The translations under genes were made by a program, and so were the position numbers. Shown one piece after another: positions 1-39,601 of a stretch of DNA of 39,877 nucleotides. Origin of the DNA: a virus; IMG/VR virus record IMGVR_UViG_3300027788_000027, positions 1 to 39,877 of that record; one strand, 5' to 3'. Below the pieces are notes generated by a model, which worked only from the letters and a program-made list of their open reading frames with translations, was not told the origin of the DNA and searched no databases. How positions within the stretch are numbered: the stretch's first letter is position 1; every line of letters begins with the position of its first letter.

Positions 1-186
1 AAAGGAGTGGCTATACTAGCGTGGAAGGATACAGACTTCCATGACGATCATCATTATGTAGTTATGGCTCAAAATCAAAAGCTAGAGTTTGTCACATGGA
101 CTTGGGCTAATGGTGGCTTTCACAATGGACACTACTATAACGATAATGAGCTAAAAGCATGGTCAAACTATAAGAAGCGCACATAA
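1..186 (+). CDS. Early hypothetical protein, 5'-truncated by the window edge
   Basis: Open from base 1 in frame 1 to a TAA at 184-186. It is the C-terminal part of the 98-residue protein encoded in full at 38896-39192. The first 33 codons match that copy exactly and the rest differ at several residues. The function is unknown. The sequence is rich in His, Asp, Trp and Tyr (motif DFHDDHHYVV) and has no membrane segment. Its stop overlaps the start of the next gene (TAATG), so the two are translationally coupled. Confidence 0.75.
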   Translation, partial: KGVAILAWKDTDFHDDHHYVVMAQNQKLEFVTWTWANGGFHNGHYYNDNELKAWSNYKKRT

Positions 187-410
187 TGACTAAACGATAT
201 ATTAACCCGCAATTTGTAAGCCGTGAAGTGCCTAAGAAAGACTTACAAGGCATACTTAAGGCCATGCGTAAACATCCCGCCATGACTGTAGAGAAGACCA
301 CAGGAGGATACACAGTCACAGATACTAATGGAATTCTGGCACTACAGGCCATGGTAGGTAATTATGCGTATCTAGTGCGCTTCAATAAAGGCTGGTTTAG
401 TCACGTATAA
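186..410 (+). CDS. Early hypothetical protein, 74 aa
   Basis: A small early protein of unknown function that begins at the ATG inside the TAATG overlap with the preceding gene. It is homologous, at roughly half identity, to the 70-residue protein at 39389-39601. The shared C-terminal motif is YLVRFNKGWF, and both have a TGGY.V.D...G hairpin-like stretch in the middle. The N-termini are unrelated. The conserved C-terminus in two diverged copies supports real coding. No Cys, membrane or known DNA-binding motif is seen. Confidence 0.7.
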   Translation: MTKRYINPQFVSREVPKKDLQGILKAMRKHPAMTVEKTTGGYTVTDTNGILALQAMVGNYAYLVRFNKGWFSHV

Positions 411-430
411 CACTAGATTTGTGTTTTCTG

Positions 431-457
431 ATTGGCTTGAGTTACACTTAGGCCAAT
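431..457 (+). other. Conserved intergenic hairpin
   Basis: ATTGGC (431-436) pairs with GCCAAT (452-457) around a 15-base loop in the gap before the Cys-rich gene. The same structure and loop occur at 39621-39649, although the flanking genes have diverged. That suggests selection on the RNA or DNA structure. No U-tract follows, so it is not a standard terminator. Confidence 0.5.
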
Positions 458-495
458 TACATAACGCAAACATAAACAATAACTGAGGTATCACC

Positions 496-1251
496 ATGTT
501 ACTAGGCACCAACAAAATTAAGGTTAAAACTAAAGCACCCAAATCACGTGGGTACATTATGTATCAAGGCCCATCAATGCTCACAGGCGCTGAAATTGTA
601 GTCATTGCTACTATGCAAACCACTAATGATAAAACTGGCGACATGGTACAGACATGGATACTGGACGCGAATACAAACCCCGTGGAAGCTATTAAAACAG
701 GCGCTGATGAAAACGTGTGTGGTCATTGCCCTCACCGTGGCACTACTTGTTATGTAAATGTAGGTCAAGCGCCTAATGCCGTATACAAGGGCTTTAAGCG
801 TGGTATATATCCACAGTTTGACATGGCTTTACATGGCGCCTATTTTGCACACAGAAAGACACGTTTAGGCGCCTATGGTGATCCAGCCGCAGCACCATAT
901 ACCACCATGGCCTTAATTGCTGGTTTAGGCCTAGGTCATACAGGATATACGCACCAAATAGCGCATAAGGGCTTTGACAAGCGCTTTATAGACTTGTGCA
1001 TGGTAAGCGCTGATACGCCTAAGCAAGCCCGTAAATATCAATCTATGGGCGCTCACACGTTCAGGGTAGCATTAGAAGGCGATAGCCTAGCAGAAGGCGA
1101 AATAGAATGCCTAGCAGATAGTGAGGGCTTACAATGTGTAGACTGTGGCCTGTGTGATGGTACCAAAAAGAATGTCGCCATTACTGTACATGGTAGCGGT
1201 GCAAGTAAATTTAAATCTGCTATGGTTATCCCTAGCACTATGGTGGCTTAA
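496..1251 (+). CDS. Cys-rich conserved phage protein, 251 aa
   Basis: This belongs to a family I recognise from many phages, with the hallmark CGHCPHRGTTCYVNVGQAPN near residues 75-95. Its function is not established. It has two Cys clusters, CxxCPHR...C near residue 75 and CVDCGLCDG near residue 220, which probably bind metal. There is no signal peptide or membrane helix. The start ATG follows the recurrent ribosome-binding context GAGGTATCACC. The first 191 bases recur at 39687-39877 with only three differences, so this gene is much better conserved than its upstream neighbours. Confidence 0.8.
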   Translation: MLLGTNKIKVKTKAPKSRGYIMYQGPSMLTGAEIVVIATMQTTNDKTGDMVQTWILDANTNPVEAIKTGADENVCGHCPHRGTTCYVNVGQAPNAVYKGFKRGIYPQFDMALHGAYFAHRKTRLGAYGDPAAAPYTTMALIAGLGLGHTGYTHQIAHKGFDKRFIDLCMVSADTPKQARKYQSMGAHTFRVALEGDSLAEGEIECLADSEGLQCVDCGLCDGTKKNVAITVHGSGASKFKSAMVIPSTMVA

Positions 1252-1252
1252 C

Positions 1253-1345
1253 ATGTATCTAATTAATGATTTAATGCTAATAGGCGCTATTCTCATGGCG
1301 CCTGTGGTTCTAAGCTATATACTTTATAAACTAATGGATAGGTAA
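1253..1345 (+). CDS. Small membrane protein, 30 aa
   Basis: A 30-residue ORF starting 1 base after the stop of the Cys-rich gene. Almost the whole protein is one hydrophobic helix (residues about 4-26: IGAILMAPVVLSYIL and flanks) followed by a short K-L-M-D-R tail. The sequence directly supports a single-pass inner-membrane peptide of unknown role. The tight spacing between two genes supports coding, but a peptide this short could be fortuitous. Confidence 0.5.
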   Translation: MYLINDLMLIGAILMAPVVLSYILYKLMDR

Positions 1346-1349
1346 CACA

Positions 1350-1757
1350 ATGAAAGTATCAGTATACAGAAATTTACATAACGGCTTAATAAGTATAAAA
1401 AGCGATTCTAGTGGCCTTGTGTTAGGCCATGCGGAAAGCGTAGATATAGCATGGGCAGACTTTGTTGTTAACGAAGCGGGACGCCAGAGAGTGCTTAAGG
1501 AAAAGCAAAAGAATGTACATGCATACGTGAAAGGCCTACTATTGAATACTATAGGCTTTACGCCATACAAAGGACGCTATTTGCAAAGATGTACAGCCTT
1601 AGGCGCTATACATTCAACGTATAAGGATACAATAGTCTCATATAACCCATACAAAGCGCCTCACTTTGTCATTAAAGGCACAAGCGACAAAGTAAGCAAG
1701 GCAAAATTGTGTACTGTGTCACATGATGGTACTATATCAGGCTATGGTATTGAATAA
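1350..1757 (+). CDS. Conserved phage protein with NVHAYVKG motif, 135 aa
   Basis: Begins MKVSVYRNLHNG and contains GRQRVLKEKQKNVHAYVKG near residues 46-64 and VSYNPYKAPHFV near residue 92. I recognise this combination from a widespread family of uncharacterised phage proteins of similar length. No function is known. It is basic and probably cytoplasmic. The start follows AGGTAACACA, the same leader-like ribosome-binding context used by several early genes here. Confidence 0.75.
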   Translation: MKVSVYRNLHNGLISIKSDSSGLVLGHAESVDIAWADFVVNEAGRQRVLKEKQKNVHAYVKGLLLNTIGFTPYKGRYLQRCTALGAIHSTYKDTIVSYNPYKAPHFVIKGTSDKVSKAKLCTVSHDGTISGYGIE

Positions 1758-1779
1758 CTAAACAAAGGAGGCGCAAGCC

Positions 1780-1932
1780 ATGTTAGAAGCTATTATCAGT
1801 CTAGTATCGTTTATTATGTGGCCTATAGTATTATGGGTTTTGTGGGCATACCTCACAGAATCACCAGCCAATAAACAGTTTAGACGCGACCAAGCAAAGA
1901 AAAATAAAGCACGTAACAAAAAAAAGAGGTAA
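1780..1932 (+). CDS. Small membrane protein with basic tail, 50 aa
   Basis: Residues about 3-25 (IISLVSFIMWPIVLWVLWAY) form one hydrophobic helix. The C-terminal 20 residues are almost all Lys, Arg, Asn and Gln, which predicts an Nout/Cin single-pass protein. The strong Shine-Dalgarno AAAGGAGG precedes the ATG. The 19 bases from the ribosome-binding site through the ATG (1764-1782) are identical to those at 2514-2532. The function is unknown. A small cationic early membrane protein could act on the host envelope, but that is speculation. Confidence 0.6.
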   Translation: MLEAIISLVSFIMWPIVLWVLWAYLTESPANKQFRRDQAKKNKARNKKKR

Positions 1933-1936
1933 CACA

Positions 1937-2089
1937 ATGAAAGACTACAAACACAAGCGCCTACAGGCCTCCTGTGAGGTACGCAAGCAAGAAAGGCTAG
2001 ACAAGTACCTTAGCATAGGCTTAAGCGCCTTAGGCGGCTTAATAGGCCTCTTCTGTATCATTTACGCTACACACGTGGCTTTAAACTAA
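1937..2089 (+). CDS. Small membrane protein, 50 aa
   Basis: The basic N-terminal half (MKDYKHKRLQ...KQERLDK) is followed by one hydrophobic helix (residues about 25-47, LSIGLSALGGLIGLFCIIY). It is preceded by GAGGTAACACA, the recurrent early ribosome-binding context, and starts 4 bases after the previous stop. With the 50-residue protein just upstream it forms a pair of small single-pass membrane proteins of opposite charge layout. The function is unknown. Confidence 0.6.
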   Translation: MKDYKHKRLQASCEVRKQERLDKYLSIGLSALGGLIGLFCIIYATHVALN

Positions 2090-2112
2090 ATATAAAAAAA
2101 GGATAAATTATC

Positions 2113-2352
2113 ATGGCAAAGTATCAAAAAACAGTAGACATTTGGTCTTTAACACAAGAGCAGAGAAAAGGCCTACAGGCAGGGCAATGGATAACAGCGG
2201 GTAAGGGTGGTAAATTTGAAACCAAAGGTATCTGGTGCGGGGTTGGTAAGAGTGGCAATGATGTTGCTATTTGGTTAGGGAACCTAGCAAGTCGCAAAGG
2301 CGCTGCTAGACTTGAGCACATTAGATTTATGATGCAATATGCAAGGGGTTAA
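2113..2352 (+). CDS. Hypothetical protein, 79 aa
   Basis: Soluble, basic and rich in Gly (AGKGGKFETKGIWCGVGKSG near residues 30-50). I do not recognise it. There is no membrane helix and a single Cys. It sits in the early small-gene cluster with AAAAAAGGAT upstream of the ATG and a 2-base gap to the next gene. The GxGKSG stretch resembles a nucleotide-binding loop but lacks the surroundings of a P-loop, so no function is proposed. Confidence 0.6.
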   Translation: MAKYQKTVDIWSLTQEQRKGLQAGQWITAGKGGKFETKGIWCGVGKSGNDVAIWLGNLASRKGAARLEHIRFMMQYARG

Positions 2353-2354
2353 CC

Positions 2355-2543
2355 ATGAGTACACTATTAACCAAACTTGATGATATACAGTATGATTTTA
2401 ATTTTCAATTTGCTATCGCCTTAAGCGACCCAGAACTAGTGGTTGCTAGTTTACGTGATCATGGCGTAATGATAGACATAGCAAAAGCTAATGAGCTAAT
2501 AGTAAACCTAAAGAAAGGAGGCGCAAGCCATGAGCAAAAGTAA
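2355..2543 (+). CDS. Hypothetical protein, 62 aa
   Basis: A predominantly helical, mildly acidic protein with no recognised domain. Its last 14 bases overlap the start of the next gene, and they contain the AAAGGAGG ribosome-binding site for that gene. This suggests coupled translation. The function is unknown. Confidence 0.55.
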   Translation: MSTLLTKLDDIQYDFNFQFAIALSDPELVVASLRDHGVMIDIAKANELIVNLKKGGASHEQK

Positions 2544-2841
2544 ACTAAGCACTCAAGCGACCGAAGTATACAATACTCTGCTTGAATTAAACTGGAGTGA
2601 ACCATACTTAACGCTTGAGCACATACAAGCAACCACAGGCCTAGGGCGCTCTAAATTAGCGCCTGTGCTTGCCGAGCTTATAGGTGATAGTAAGGTATTA
2701 CATGGGAATGAAGAGGCCTTAGGCGAGCTTATAGAGACCTTCACGCCTAAAGTAAAAGGGGTTGCATATGGTTACCCATTAGATTATTATACATTTGATG
2801 AATGGATTGAACATAAACTTAAAAATGAGGTGACAAAATGA
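2530..2841 (+). CDS. Putative winged-helix DNA-binding protein, 103 aa
   Basis: Residues about 28-57 (LTLEHIQATTGLGRSKLAPV and following) read as a helix-turn-helix: a helix, a GLGRS turn, and a recognition-like helix with an AELIGDSKV wing. The C-terminal half (YGYPLDYYTFDEWIEHKL) is aromatic and acidic. The inference is a small transcription regulator or a modifier of host machinery, which would fit an early gene. I cannot assign a named family. The ribosome-binding site AAAGGAGG is strong and duplicates the one at 1764. Confidence 0.6.
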   Translation: MSKSKLSTQATEVYNTLLELNWSEPYLTLEHIQATTGLGRSKLAPVLAELIGDSKVLHGNEEALGELIETFTPKVKGVAYGYPLDYYTFDEWIEHKLKNEVTK

Positions 2842-3032
2842 GATGTAAAGCGTGTAACGTCATATTGAATGACATAGAATTGAGTAGAAAAGACAAAGAT
2901 ACAGATTTATTTATTGATTTGTGCGGAAAGTGCTTGACATACTCAAATGAAGCAAGTTATAATGTTGACTTAGAAGTAGACATTAACATAAACGAAGTTA
3001 AAGGGGATAGCCCATGGCTAATTCAACAATAA
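2838..3032 (+). CDS. Small zinc-ribbon protein, 64 aa
   Basis: Two CxxC pairs (C3/C6 and C29/C32) about 23 residues apart form a probable zinc ribbon. The tail is acidic (VDLEVDININEV). It overlaps the previous gene by 4 bases (ATGA) and the next by 19. A consensus sigma70 promoter lies within its coding sequence at 2934-2963. Small zinc-ribbon proteins in phages often bind host polymerase or nucleases. No specific role can be assigned here. Confidence 0.6.
   Translation: MRCKACNVILNDIELSRKDKDTDLFIDLCGKCLTYSNEASYNVDLEVDININEVKGDSPWLIQQ
2934..2963 (+). promoter_or_regulatory. Sigma70-type promoter inside the zinc-ribbon gene
   Basis: TTGACA (2934-2939), an 18-base spacer and TATAAT (2958-2963). 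Both hexamers are exact. It would start transcription near 2970, ahead of the gene at 3014, and feeds the replication block. The spacer is one base longer than optimal and there is no extended -10. Confidence 0.65.
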
Positions 3033-3268
3033 ATATTGAGATTGATGTTCTAAATGAGACTGTAATGCTCGAAATTGAGGTAGTATGGCACATGAGTGTC
3101 GCTGGTGAGCTTACAATTGACGACTTTTATGGTTACCACTTCAACTATAAGACAGGTGAATACACACGTATTCCTGAGTGGTTGCATAAGATCATTGAGA
3201 CTACTCAACTATTAGAGGAGGAGTATACAGACCTAATTGACCTTAATTGTGATGAAAGGACATATTGA
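3014..3268 (+). CDS. Acidic hypothetical protein, 84 aa
   Basis: Strongly acidic (many Glu and Asp) with two internal repeats of the pattern NxExxVLxExxV at the N-terminus. It could be a DNA-mimic or protein-binding factor, but that is conjecture. It starts inside the end of the zinc-ribbon gene and is the first gene after the promoter at 2934. The consensus promoter at 3271 follows 3 bases after its stop. The family is unrecognised. Confidence 0.55.
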   Translation: MANSTINIEIDVLNETVMLEIEVVWHMSVAGELTIDDFYGYHFNYKTGEYTRIPEWLHKIIETTQLLEEEYTDLIDLNCDERTY

Positions 3269-3270
3269 GG

Positions 3271-3299
3271 TTGACAAGGTTTAACACGTTTGGTATAAT
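3271..3299 (+). promoter_or_regulatory. Perfect sigma70 promoter of the replication operon
   Basis: TTGACA (3271-3276), a 17-base spacer, and TATAAT (3294-3299) preceded by TG at the extended -10 position. This is as strong as a sigma70 promoter can look. Transcription would begin near 3306 with an approximately 150-base leader before the SSB gene. It points to middle or early expression of replication genes by host RNA polymerase. Confidence 0.9.
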
Positions 3300-3459
3300 A
3301 TACCTAAGAACAAAAGAAATTCTTTTAGTTAATTCATAATGAATCAATTAAAGTTTACCTTAAGACTCTTAAGTAGTTCATATAAACTACATATTAGTCT
3401 TTACCCTAGTGCTTGGTCAATAATGGTCAAGCCTAATAAAACCCATAAAGGATAATTTT
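3300..3459 (+). promoter_or_regulatory. Structured leader shared with the late operon leader
   Basis: Non-coding 160 bases between the promoter and SSB. Positions 3323-3353 hold a 31-base module built on ATTCATAATGAAT followed by CAATTAAAG. The same module occurs twice, on the opposite strand, in the late leader (37916-37945 and 37851-37878). It is followed here by CTTAAGACTCTTAAG. Two further hairpins are visible: GTAGTT/AACTAC (3373-3378 with 3385-3390) and GCTTG/CAAGC (about 3412-3433). I infer a common RNA processing, stability or regulator-binding element. Confidence 0.65.
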
Positions 3460-3825
3460 ATGTCAGTAATTAATGGTAGTGCAGCATTTGTCAATCTAAC
3501 AGAGCATGAGCTTTATCAGGGGCAGTCAACTGGTAAGTATTCATTGACAGTTACCCTAGACGATGCGTCAATCACGCAGCTAGAGGCGCAGGGCGTTAAG
3601 ATGCGCACCTATGAGGGGCAGCAGCAGCGCAAGTTTGCCTCTAAGTTCAACGTGCCTTTATATGAGGCCAATGGTGACGAGTTCATGGGCGCCATTACAC
3701 GTGGTTCCTTGGTACGTGTACAGTACAGCCTAGGTGATGAGCACCCTGTACATGGCTTTACCCCATACCTCGATAAGGTCAAGGTACTGGAGCTTGCCAC
3801 TAGCAACACAGACGAGGACTTCTAA
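3460..3825 (+). CDS. Single-stranded DNA-binding protein (T7 gp2.5-type, compact)
   Basis: A 121-residue OB-fold-like protein with a beta-rich body (YSLTVTLDDAS, RGSLVRVQYSLG) and an acidic tail ending NTDEDF. An acidic tail with terminal Phe is the T7 gp2.5 hallmark, used to contact polymerase and primase-helicase. The protein is about half the length of T7 gp2.5 (232 aa). It coats single-stranded DNA at the fork. It is the first gene after the strong promoter and leader at 3271-3459, and primase-helicase and polymerase follow. The assignment rests on position, tail and composition rather than a diagnostic motif. Confidence 0.75.
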   Translation: MSVINGSAAFVNLTEHELYQGQSTGKYSLTVTLDDASITQLEAQGVKMRTYEGQQQRKFASKFNVPLYEANGDEFMGAITRGSLVRVQYSLGDEHPVHGFTPYLDKVKVLELATSNTDEDF

Positions 3826-3908: not shown

Positions 3909-5540
3909 ATGCGTAAAGAACAGACAGAGAGTACCTTTGTAAAGCATGGCCCTTGTTCCTCTTGTGGTTCATCGGATGCTAATGCTATTTACTCAGACAA
4001 TCATCAAGTGTGCTTCTCATGTAATGCGTACATACATGGTGATGGGTCAGTAGTTAATACTAATAAGACAAGAGCGAGGCCTTTAGAAATGACAGGCACA
4101 ATAGCAGCTATACAGGATAGACGCATAAGCATGGATACAGCCAAGCGTTATGGCGTCACAGTAGAGAATGGTGAGGATGGTAGCATTAGTAAGCACCATT
4201 ACCCATATCACAATCAGGAGGGTAACAAAGTAGTTGGCACTAAGGTACGCAATGTAGCGACCAAGGATTTTTATGCCACAGGCGACCTAGGCAGTGCTGG
4301 CTTGTTTGGTCAGCAATCTTTTGCAGCAGGTGGTAAGTACATAACCATTACAGAGGGTGAGATAGACGCCATGGCAGCGTATGAGATGAATGGTGGTTTC
4401 CCTGCCGTATCTATTCGCTCAGGCGCCAACAGCGCAGTCAAGGACGTTAAGGCCAGCCTTGAGTACCTAGAGACATTTGATAAGGTAGTCATATGCTTTG
4501 ACTCAGACGAGGCAGGTATCAAGGCCGCACAGGACGTTCTACCGCTGTTTAGCCCTCGTAAGGCCAAGGTATGCACCCTGCCCCTTAAGGACGCTGGCGA
4601 TATGCTCAAGGCCAACAGGGTACGTGAGTACACTAAATGCTGGTGGGATGCCAAGGCCTACAAGCCTGAGGGTGTTGTAAGCCTAGGTGACCCTGACGTA
4701 TGGGATAAGTTTCTTAAGCGAGGTACAGAAGAGGTAACACCACTACCTGCAAGCTTTGGTAGTCTTAATGCCATGATGAATGGCGGTATCGCAGCAGGTG
4801 AGGTGACAGTCATAGGCGCCCTAACGTCCATAGGTAAGACCACTATGGTTTATAACCTAGTGCATGGTATGTACGTAGAGAGTGCTAAGAAGATCGGTTG
4901 TGTGTTCCTAGAGGCTGACGTTGGCGAGACAGTAGAGAAGCTACTATCAGTGTACATGGGTACTAACATTGCAGATGTATCTAATGAGGACAGGGATTAC
5001 AATCTGTACCATGAGAAGTATGACGAGATGGCAAACAGTGACAAGCTACACATCTTAGATCATCAAGGTGCGTTAGAGGCTGACGAGTTATTTGCTAAGA
5101 TGCAATACTTGGTTAAAGGCTTAGATTGTGATATAATAATACTAGACCCCCTGCAAGCAGCGGTGACCAGTAATGAGAATGGAACCATTGATGCGTTCAT
5201 GGACAAGTGCCTTAAGCTTGCCAAGAATACAGGTGTTAGTATTATCATTGTTAGTCACATGCGTAAGCCACACGCTAAGGACGCCCACGATGTAGGTGAG
5301 TATGACTTGAAGGGCAGCGGTTCAATCAACCAGATTGCTTTTAATACTATACTCCTGTCAAGGGACAAAATGACGGACGATGATTACGCACGTAACTGTA
5401 CTCAGGTGCAACTAGTTAAGTGTAGGCGTACAGGACGTACAGGGGTAGCTGGCTGGCTCTTTTATGAGAACCATAGCAGTCGCTTGGTAGCTACTCAGGC
5501 ACCTGAGACTAAGGCAGCTAACGCACATGACGATTTTTAA
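3909..5540 (+). CDS. Bifunctional primase-helicase (T7 gp4-type)
   Basis: 543 residues, close to T7 gp4 (566). Domains in order: an N-terminal zinc-binding domain with C16, C19, C35 and C38; a TOPRIM primase core with EGEIDA at residue 149 and the DSDEAG motif near 198; and a RecA-like hexameric helicase with P-loop GKTT at residues 309-312. The helicase Walker B is IIILDPLQA near residue 415 and the C-terminal part carries ...VSHMRKP. The residue before the P-loop Leu is Ala rather than the usual Gly (ALTSIGKT). It unwinds DNA and primes the lagging strand beside the polymerase and SSB encoded next to it. Confidence 0.93.
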   Translation: MRKEQTESTFVKHGPCSSCGSSDANAIYSDNHQVCFSCNAYIHGDGSVVNTNKTRARPLEMTGTIAAIQDRRISMDTAKRYGVTVENGEDGSISKHHYPYHNQEGNKVVGTKVRNVATKDFYATGDLGSAGLFGQQSFAAGGKYITITEGEIDAMAAYEMNGGFPAVSIRSGANSAVKDVKASLEYLETFDKVVICFDSDEAGIKAAQDVLPLFSPRKAKVCTLPLKDAGDMLKANRVREYTKCWWDAKAYKPEGVVSLGDPDVWDKFLKRGTEEVTPLPASFGSLNAMMNGGIAAGEVTVIGALTSIGKTTMVYNLVHGMYVESAKKIGCVFLEADVGETVEKLLSVYMGTNIADVSNEDRDYNLYHEKYDEMANSDKLHILDHQGALEADELFAKMQYLVKGLDCDIIILDPLQAAVTSNENGTIDAFMDKCLKLAKNTGVSIIIVSHMRKPHAKDAHDVGEYDLKGSGSINQIAFNTILLSRDKMTDDDYARNCTQVQLVKCRRTGRTGVAGWLFYENHSSRLVATQAPETKAANAHDDF

Positions 5541-37800: not shown

Positions 37801-37978
37801 TCAATTACCTCTTTGTTGAGATTGAGTCTTACTTAAGTATACTTAAGAATCTTTAATCAATTCATTATGAATAAACTGTAAGAGTCTTAAGTATACTAAA
37901 GATTCTTAAGTAATGCTTTAATTGATCATTAATGAATAACTAAAAGGTTCTTAAGAAGAAGCTTTACAACTTAAGTAT
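37801..37978 (-). promoter_or_regulatory. Structured leader of the structural operon with repeated modules
   Basis: Non-coding 178 bases downstream of the late promoter. Two copies of the TTCATNATGA-type module (37916-37945 and 37851-37878, minus strand) match the module in the leader at 3323-3353. There are six CTTAAG sites in 150 bp, including a perfect 16-bp palindrome CTTAAGTATACTTAAG at 37832-37847 and a near copy at 37884-37899. Candidate regulator-binding or RNA processing region controlling the late genes. Confidence 0.65.
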
Positions 37979-38007
37979 ATTATAACATATTTAGAGCAGA
38001 ATGTCAA
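37979..38007 (-). promoter_or_regulatory. Perfect sigma70 promoter of the structural operon
   Basis: On the minus strand TTGACA (38002-38007), 17-base spacer, TATAAT (37979-37984), with TG one base upstream (extended -10). Transcription would begin near 37972 and read leftward into the terminase genes. Mirror image of the promoter at 3271 in strength and in the module that follows. Confidence 0.9.
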
Positions 38008-38220: not shown

Positions 38221-38525
38221 TTATCCACAGGTTCTTAAGTTATCCACAGGTTACACACAGGTTACACACAGGTTATCCACAAGCCTCAAGGCACCTGAGT
38301 TATCCACAGGTTATCCACAGGCTACCTAAGGACTTGAGTTATCCACAGGTTATCCACAGGTTATCCACAGGTTCTTGAGTTACCACAGGTTTACTACGGT
38401 TGTCAATAGCGTGACTATTGTGGCTTGTGTAGTCACAGGTTTACAAGTGTGTGCCAGTGTGGGTGCCTATGGAGACATGAGTAACCTGTGCATAACCTGT
38501 ACATAAGTCACATAAGTTATCCACA
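38221..38525 (+). other. DnaA-box array, candidate replication origin
   Basis: Nine exact TTATCCACA boxes on + strand at 38221, 38240, 38273, 38300, 38311, 38339, 38350, 38361 and 38517. There is one consensus box on the minus strand (TTATGCACA, 38487-38495). Variant boxes TTACACACA lie at 38251 and 38262. Several start exactly 11 bp apart (38240-38251-38262-38273, 38300-38311, 38339-38350-38361), putting them on the same DNA face. This is the pattern of a DnaA-loading origin or a DnaA titration site. Confidence 0.85.
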
Positions 38526-38534
38526 GGTGCCTGA

Positions 38535-38599
38535 GGCTTTATATAAGCCGTTCTAAGCGTGTTTAGTGTAAAACCTAAGCAAACATATGACTAATGTTT
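38535..38599. other. Inverted repeats between the DnaA array and sigma54 promoter 1
   Basis: GGCTT/AAGCC around TATAT at 38535-38549, and AAACAT/ATGTTT with a 7-base centre at 38581-38599. The second is centred about 55 bp upstream of the predicted P1 start. Possible protein-binding sites. Confidence 0.4.
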
Positions 38600-38618
38600 T
38601 TACGTCGATTCTAGGTTA

Positions 38619-38635
38619 TTGGCACGATAGTTGCT
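38619..38635 (+). promoter_or_regulatory. Sigma54 (RpoN) promoter P1, perfect consensus
   Basis: TTGGCACGATAGTTGCT matches YTGGCACG-N4-TTGCW at every fixed position: -24 element TGGCACG (38620-38626), -12 element TTGC (38631-38634). Transcription start near 38646, reading into the early operon. Requires an activator ATPase of the host. Confidence 0.82.
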
Positions 38636-38645
38636 TAAGATACCC

Positions 38646-38660
38646 GCACTACATTGGTGC
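38646..38660. promoter_or_regulatory. NtrC-type enhancer box 1
   Basis: GCACTACATTGGTGC fits GCAC-N7-GTGC, the half-site pattern of NtrC enhancers, and resembles the E. coli glnA sites. It sits at the predicted P1 start and is centred about 199 bp upstream of the P2 start. Confidence 0.7.
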
Positions 38661-38666
38661 GCCCTA

Positions 38667-38681
38667 GCACTACAATGGTGC
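38667..38681. promoter_or_regulatory. NtrC-type enhancer box 2
   Basis: GCACTACAATGGTGC, exactly 21 bp (two helical turns) from box 1, as expected for cooperative dimers. Centred about 178 bp upstream of the P2 start. Confidence 0.7.
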
Positions 38682-38685
38682 GTGT

Positions 38686-38813
38686 CTCTAGCCCTTGCTA
38701 TGCCTAGCTATCAGGCAATAGTGTCAATATAACGTCATATTATTGCACTACTATGGTGCATTGGTGCTATGCCTTGCTTATGCCTATATAGCCTCTAGCC
38801 CTTACCATGCCTA
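38686..38813 (+). repeat. 21-bp direct repeat pair in the early control region
   Basis: CTCTAGCCCTT-C-ATGCCTA occurs at 38686-38706 and 38793-38813 with two mismatches, 107 bp apart. It suggests past partial duplication of the promoter region, also seen in the paired sigma54 promoters and multiple enhancer boxes. Confidence 0.6.
38745..38759. promoter_or_regulatory. NtrC-type enhancer box 3
   Basis: GCACTACTATGGTGC inside TGCACTACTATGGTGCA, so the symmetry extends to 17 bp, followed by an extra TTGGTGC half-site. Centred about 100 bp upstream of the P2 start, the usual enhancer distance. Confidence 0.75.
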
Positions 38814-38825
38814 CGTTTGCCATTG

Positions 38826-38842
38826 TTGGCACGTGTATTGCA
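38826..38842 (+). promoter_or_regulatory. Sigma54 (RpoN) promoter P2, consensus
   Basis: TTGGCACGTGTATTGCA matches YTGGCACG-N4-TTGCW at all fixed positions: TGGCACG (38827-38833), TTGC (38838-38841). Start near 38853, giving a short leader of about 43 bases to the ATG at 38896. The three enhancer boxes lie upstream of it. Confidence 0.82.
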
Positions 38843-38895
38843 TTAAGTCTAGTAGCGAGGCATAAGGCCAAACGCACTACTATATAGGTAACACC

Positions 38896-39192
38896 ATGAC
38901 TAACTACACTACTGACGCACAAATAGACGCACAAGGCCTTAAGCATGAGGAATGGCTAGAGGCTAGCATGGCGGCTCAACGTCATATGTTTAACACTGCT
39001 AGAGGTAAAGGAGTGGCTATACTAGCGTGGAAGGATACAGACTTCCATGACGATCATCATTATGTAGTTATGGCTCAAAATCAAAAGCTAGAGTTTGTCA
39101 CATGGGTATGGGCTAATGGTGGCTTCCATTGTGGTCACTACTATAACGATAATGAGCTAAAAGCATGGGCAAACTATAAGGAACGCACATAA
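38896..39192 (+). CDS. First early gene, hypothetical protein, 98 aa
   Basis: Full-length copy of the protein truncated at the left edge of the window. Starts MTNYTTDAQIDAQGLKHEEW after AGGTAACACC. The central part is aromatic and His-rich (AILAWKDTDFHDDHHYVVMA; WANGGFHCGHYYNDNELKAW). One copy has Cys where the left copy has Asn (FHCGHYY against FHNGHYY). No known family. It is the first gene after the sigma54 promoters, the place where host-takeover genes usually lie. Confidence 0.75.
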   Translation: MTNYTTDAQIDAQGLKHEEWLEASMAAQRHMFNTARGKGVAILAWKDTDFHDDHHYVVMAQNQKLEFVTWVWANGGFHCGHYYNDNELKAWANYKERT

Positions 39193-39377
39193 TGAGCGAT
39201 ATTAAAACACTAGACACTTTTGTCATTATACATGACATTTTAGACGCTGATAATTACGACGATATGTGCAAAAAACTATCTAATTTGCATTTAGAATTGG
39301 CACGTAAATACTATAAAGACACAGGGAATAAGATAGGCCCACAGGCTAATGTCGCCCTTACTACTACTATTGATTGA
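39192..39377 (+). CDS. Early hypothetical protein present in only one terminal copy, 61 aa
   Basis: Starts by TAATG overlap. Helical and acidic in the first half (DTFVIIHDILDADNYDDMCK), basic in the second. No family recognised. The gene is missing from the left copy, where the ATG of the overlap instead opens the 74-residue gene. A clean presence/absence polymorphism in the early region is typical of dispensable host-takeover genes. Confidence 0.65.
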   Translation: MSDIKTLDTFVIIHDILDADNYDDMCKKLSNLHLELARKYYKDTGNKIGPQANVALTTTID

Positions 39378-39388
39378 GGTATAAACCC

Positions 39389-39601
39389 ATGACTACTAGC
39401 ACACACTTTACACGTATGTTAACCAAACCAGAAACACAGGATATATTGAAGGCGCTTAGAAAGCGTGATGATATGGAAGTATCTAAAGTTACAGGAGGGT
39501 ACTCTGTATTGGATAACGAGGGCCAATTAGTGCTCAGGGCCATGATAGGCACTAGAGGCTATTTAGTGCGCTTTAATAAAGGCTGGTTTAACGCTGACTA
39601 A
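39389..39601 (+). CDS. Early hypothetical protein, 70 aa (diverged copy of 186-410)
   Basis: ATG 39389 lies nine bases after GAGG; an in-frame TTG at 39374 is less likely. Shares the ending YLVRFNKGWF and KVTGGYSVLDNEGQL with the left copy, while the N-terminus (MTTSTHFTRMLTKPETQDIL) is different. Function unknown. Confidence 0.7.
   Translation: MTTSTHFTRMLTKPETQDILKALRKRDDMEVSKVTGGYSVLDNEGQLVLRAMIGTRGYLVRFNKGWFNAD

Follow-up and report, generated by a model that had tools for sequence, protein, structure and literature searches.

A putative NtrC-dependent sigma54 control region upstream of the early operon of a marine-type phage

The window described here, the whole stretch of 39,877 nucleotides that was analyzed, appears to come from a marine-type bacterial virus. 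Its genes lie in two divergent arms that meet in a gap at 37.8-38.9 kb. The rightward arm contains small early ORFs, followed by genes for a T7-type primase-helicase, a PolA-type polymerase, an exonuclease, endonucleases, and ribonucleotide reductase. The leftward arm contains genes for terminase, an SU10/P22-type portal, capsid, and tail proteins. We infer from gene content and position that the operon of small ORFs is early; it resumes at the start of the contig, from 186 to 3268. The two contig ends (1-686 and 39007-39877) overlap at 93-94% identity, with one gene gained or lost between them. The contig thus closes a circle but brings together two strain variants in the early region. The sigma70 promoters and the first early genes are as follows:

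3271-3299, + strand: promoter of the replication operon, a perfect sigma70 match (TTGACA-17-TATAAT)
37829-37955, no strand given: CTTAAGTATACTTAAG and related palindromes that resemble operators, located downstream of the promoter of the structural operon and partly common to the replication promoter
37979-38007, - strand: promoter of the terminase/structural operon, a perfect sigma70 match (TTGACA-17-TATAAT)
38896-39192, + strand: first early gene, 98 amino acids, of no family
39192-39601, + strand: further small early ORFs of 61 and 75 amino acids

Both perfect sigma70 promoters score 17.1 bits and are kept in relatives. In contrast, the best sigma70-like match upstream of the first early gene scores 7.2 bits and coincides with a sigma54 element (see below). 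The initial annotation had reported no good sigma70 promoter for the gene at 38896 in this gap, and that statement holds. Common operator-like palindromes follow the sigma70 promoters of the replication (3271-3460) and structural (37829-38007) operons, which suggests that one phage regulator acts on both.

The virus had been described as a T7-like phage, a label that fits only its replication proteins. The primase-helicase, PolA-type polymerase, and endonuclease I are of T7 type and are related to those of the Autographiviridae. Unlike the Autographiviridae, with their gene order on one strand and in one direction, this virus has divergent arms, a different portal, and no phage RNA polymerase. 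A search for single-subunit RNA polymerase (PF00940) found none in the window and none in the three relatives searched, whereas it did find that of the T7-like Klebsiella phage ZK1; we therefore rejected T7-like transcription. Because there is no phage RNA polymerase gene, transcription relies on host RNA polymerase, unless an unrecognized enzyme is encoded. We also searched the genome for a sigma54 gene and for a sigma54-activator gene and found neither, and we dropped the notion that the phage supplies its own activator or sigma factor. No tyrosine-type integrase (PF00589) was found in the window, so there is no indication of this type that the phage is temperate. No close cultured phage was found. 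A terminase scan of GTDB for a host yielded six doubtfully binned MAG contigs (Sphingobacteriales, Verrucomicrobiales, Euryarchaeota, and others), none of them credible.

The gap between the two arms contains two sigma54 elements, P1 and P2, located precisely where the initial annotation had placed them. Between P1 and P2 are three exact copies of the motif abbreviated GCACTACNATGGTGC, overlooked in that annotation, which we take to be NtrC boxes (TGCACY-N5-GGTGCA).

38619-38635, + strand: sigma54 -24/-12 element P1, TTGGCACGATAGTTGCT, exact consensus; predicted start ~38646
38646-38660, + strand: NtrC box 1, GCACTACATTGGTGC, exact GCACYN5GGTGC, conserved; center at -200 from the P2 start
38667-38681, + strand: NtrC box 2, GCACTACAATGGTGC, exact GCACYN5GGTGC; center at -179 from the P2 start
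38686-38706, + strand: direct repeat, copy 1, CTCTAGCCCTTGCTATGCCTA
38726-38741, no strand given: dyad AATATAACGTCATATT, located between boxes 2 and 3 and conserved without change in the nine clade sequences compared
38744-38760 (inner match from 38745), + strand: NtrC box 3, TGCACTACTATGGTGCA, exact over the full 17-bp consensus, conserved; center at -101 from the P2 start
38793-38813, + strand: direct repeat, copy 2, CTCTAGCCCTTACCATGCCTA
38826-38842, + strand: sigma54 -24/-12 element P2, TTGGCACGTGTATTGCA, exact consensus; predicted start ~38853

P1 and P2 have no mismatch to YTGGCACGN4TTGCW, are 207 bp apart in the only large intergenic gap, and point at the same operon, toward the ORF at 38896. 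Each has GG at -24 and GC at -12, ten bases apart, as in sigma54 promoters. Two exact matches compare to 0.0025-0.0046 expected (Markov model with the composition of the window, both strands). When up to two mismatches are allowed, there are just three occurrences in the window, and the pattern is uninformative at that stringency; thus, the exactness and the position of the elements are the signal. Apart from P1 and P2, every site in the genome has at least two mismatches.

The NtrC boxes are similarly exact. There is no further occurrence of GCACY-N5-GGTGC without mismatch in the window (0.15 expected per window). Box 3 fits all fixed positions of the 17-bp dyad TGCACYN5GGTGCA, and boxes 1 and 2 fit the inner 15 bp; box 1 differs from the shorthand by one central base. 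The E. coli glnA promoter was retrieved as a control for box sequence and spacing. At glnAp2 the boxes are GCACCAACATGGTGC, centered at -140, and GCACTATATTGGTGC, centered at -108, comparable to the box at -101 and the distal pair in the window. In one relative (L103), box 2 is GCACTATATTGGTGC, the same sequence as this E. coli box. The two control regions are alike in box sequence, in having several boxes upstream of a -24/-12 element, and in spacing. Unlike glnAp2, the control region of the window serves a phage early operon. It has three boxes, with the distal pair farther out (-179 and -200) and a conserved dyad lying between boxes, and another sigma54 element is found on their upstream side.

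The boxes are upstream of P2 and just downstream of P1, so P2 is the natural target of NtrC. All three lie within the ~70-200 bp upstream that is usual for activator sites of sigma54 promoters. P2 is the candidate for the main early promoter, and P1 may be auxiliary. P2 was found in every clade member examined, although these members had been selected for P2. P1 was retained in three relatives (L009, L084, L095) and was present with CAT for CAC in four others (L096, L098, L107, L109). L103 has unrelated sequence in place of P1, keeps P2 and all of the boxes, and has two further sigma54 patterns farther upstream.

Just upstream of the sigma54 region are nine exact DnaA boxes (TTATCCACA; 38221-38525), all on the + strand. 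Similar arrays are present in relatives L003, L006, L011, L013, and L036. The array is possibly an origin that depends on host DnaA, or a DnaA sink.

We measured conservation in relatives chosen regardless of their promoters. A terminase scan of IMG/VR gave 80 relatives, 54 with sufficient upstream sequence. Forward sigma54 sites were present in the corresponding gap of 29 of the 54, for a total of 74 sites compared to 0.85 expected. Seventy of the 74 were exact matches to TTGGCAYRN4TTGC. There were 17 sites in the reverse direction. Conservation of the -24/-12 elements is partial, as some close relatives lack them.

In a separate scan of IMG/VR, we searched for an NtrC box followed after 50-80 nt by TTGGCACN5TTGC and found this arrangement in 29 contigs. 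Spacing of 300-330 nt gave four contigs, and reversing the sigma54 motif gave none. Based on these controls and the expected counts, we rejected a chance origin of the motifs. Twenty-one of the 29 contigs are related to the window by terminase or helicase, with terminase identities of 26-100%. Boxes 1 and 2 were not required by the search, and all of their half-site bases (20/20) are kept in L103 and L095; the remainder of the region is 69% (L103) or 75% (L095) identical, and the terminase of L095 is 64% identical. A podovirus-like phage, L110, is unrelated; it has a single NtrC box and three sigma54 sites directed toward its leftward genes.

The initial annotation had named loss of the -24/-12 elements from otherwise conserved relatives as evidence against these promoters, and such loss was found in part. 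Four relatives (L008, L010, L011, L013) have terminases 84-88% identical to that of the window, yet no sigma54 sites. Their control regions are of other kinds, not versions in which the sites have decayed, which argues for module exchange and not for lack of function. In another seven (L003, L113, L115, L116, L118, L119, L137), one forward element is paired with an inverted one that stands in place of the NtrC boxes. In three freshwater-looking relatives (L088, L091, L100), the boxes are upstream of a sigma54 site that points to the terminase side. Because relatives lack, replace, or reorient the sites, the control region behaves as an exchangeable module. We read the loss of sites as turnover between regulatory solutions, perhaps accompanying changes of host.

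The analysis thus shows sites that are regularly spaced with respect to one another, conserved in part, and recurrent in other phages, and it shows neither a good sigma70 promoter for the early operon nor an activator encoded by the phage. We put at roughly 80% the probability that the region from 38540 to 38895 is an NtrC-dependent sigma54 control region through which phosphorylated host NtrC and sigma54-RNA polymerase switch on the early operon under nitrogen limitation. Sigma54 promoters are enhancer-dependent and do not fire without a specific activator. The proposal of sigma54 control and of a need for a host activator ATPase, already in the initial annotation, is supported, and the boxes allow the activator to be named as NtrC. 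In the proposed mechanism, which extends to binding, transcription start sites, timing, and physiological meaning, host NtrC that is phosphorylated at nitrogen shortage would occupy the three boxes. Through looping of the DNA, it would reach sigma54-RNA polymerase held in a closed complex at P2 (and P1), and the ATPase of NtrC would open the promoter. The early operon of small genes would then be expressed, or strongly boosted, in a nitrogen-limited host or when infection drains glutamine.

It is conceivable, though we think it unlikely, that an unrecognized sigma70 or other promoter mainly drives the early operon and that NtrC and sigma54 merely boost it under nitrogen limitation. Sigma70-like sites were found close to the first early gene of two relatives (L006 and L010), and an AT-rich dyad in the window (GGCTTTATATAAGCC, ~38536-38550) could contain a weak -10; the early region of the window may have a weak sigma70 promoter. 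Against this, the best upstream score is far below those of the other two operons and belongs to a sigma54 element.

The arrangement of sites in some relatives bears on another alternative. Tandem sigma54 patterns are present in at least 120 viral contigs. Of 119 examined, 51 encode a recognizable relative of the window's terminase, and some of the others match by chance within long reading frames. Several relatives of the window have arrays of up to eight sites. In L058, L077, L020, and L042, the arrays consist of 5-8 sites, commonly at intervals of 26-28 nt, and lack a nearby NtrC box. Convergent inverted pairs, separated by 3-7 nt, are present in the early gaps of L003, L053, L077, and L088 and in Vibrio phages VspSw_1 and PG07. 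The spacing of such pairs, as in TTGGCACGATACTTGC-TTTAT-GCAATACTTGTGCCA, is too tight for simultaneous firing, and each pair is possibly a single bidirectional sigma54 site. Long arrays and convergent pairs would suit decoys or roadblocks that trap sigma54-RNA polymerase in closed complexes, keeping it off host genes or blocking transcription, rather than productive promoters. The window has just two sites, with NtrC boxes at an activating distance, and sites across the family are mostly oriented toward the early operon (74 versus 17); we find this explanation improbable. That the motifs are sites for a phage-encoded regulator or replication protein and merely resemble sigma54 and NtrC sites is very improbable: although arrays, inverted pairs, and nearby DnaA boxes are reminiscent of multi-site regulatory or origin DNA, it demands an exact match to two independent bacterial consensus motifs at a working distance, and one relative has a box identical to one from E. 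coli glnA.

Lytic phages are generally thought to begin infection with strong sigma70 promoters that are active in any growing cell. An early operon behind NtrC would couple infection to the nitrogen state of the cell, and would account for how a virus senses host nutrition without a sensor of its own. Nitrogen is limiting in much of the ocean. We are evenly divided on a broader proposal, that there is a widespread class of aquatic phages whose lytic program is conditional on the nitrogen-starvation response of the host, with the early operon silent or poorly expressed until NtrC is phosphorylated, and whose control cassette has been gained, lost, and swapped among related phages and has arisen in or spread to several unrelated lineages. 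The combination of sites could help to identify such phages from sequence and to predict usable hosts, namely bacteria that have RpoN and NtrC.

It is already known that phages make use of the nutrient regulators of their hosts. A related proposal of nitrogen-linked control was made for cyanophages: T4-like myoviruses have genes under the host nitrogen-stress regulator NtcA, with 1-16 NtcA sites per genome (PMC3037559). The cyanophages and the window are alike in placing phage genes under a host nitrogen-stress regulator. They differ in that NtcA is not a sigma54 enhancer-binding ATPase, and in that NtcA sites are dispersed upstream of functionally diverse genes whereas the window has a single early-operon enhancer. 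What appears to be new is an enhancer-dependent sigma54/NtrC early operon. The literature searched contained no report of a phage early operon controlled by sigma54 or NtrC, which is weak evidence since subscription journals were mostly outside its coverage. The nearest paper on a T7-like phage concerned a putative phage sigma54-like protein, not promoters.

Among cultured phages, we found no such sigma54 sites in Klebsiella phage ZK1, Pseudoalteromonas phage Slicky01, or Vibrio phage 1.157.O. VspSw_1 has six exact sigma54 patterns near its pre-early genes; three of these are repeats, in antisense, of a single gene-start context, no NtrC boxes were found, and we treat this phage as a lead only. 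As in the window, a few sigma54-consensus sites lie around the pre-early genes of the T5-like Vibrio phages VspSw_1, PG07, KIT04, and Ceto. Sites in the cultured T5-like Vibrio phages, whose hosts are known, are at 4826-4860 (L202), 4550 (L203), 750 (L204), and 4236-4270 (L205).
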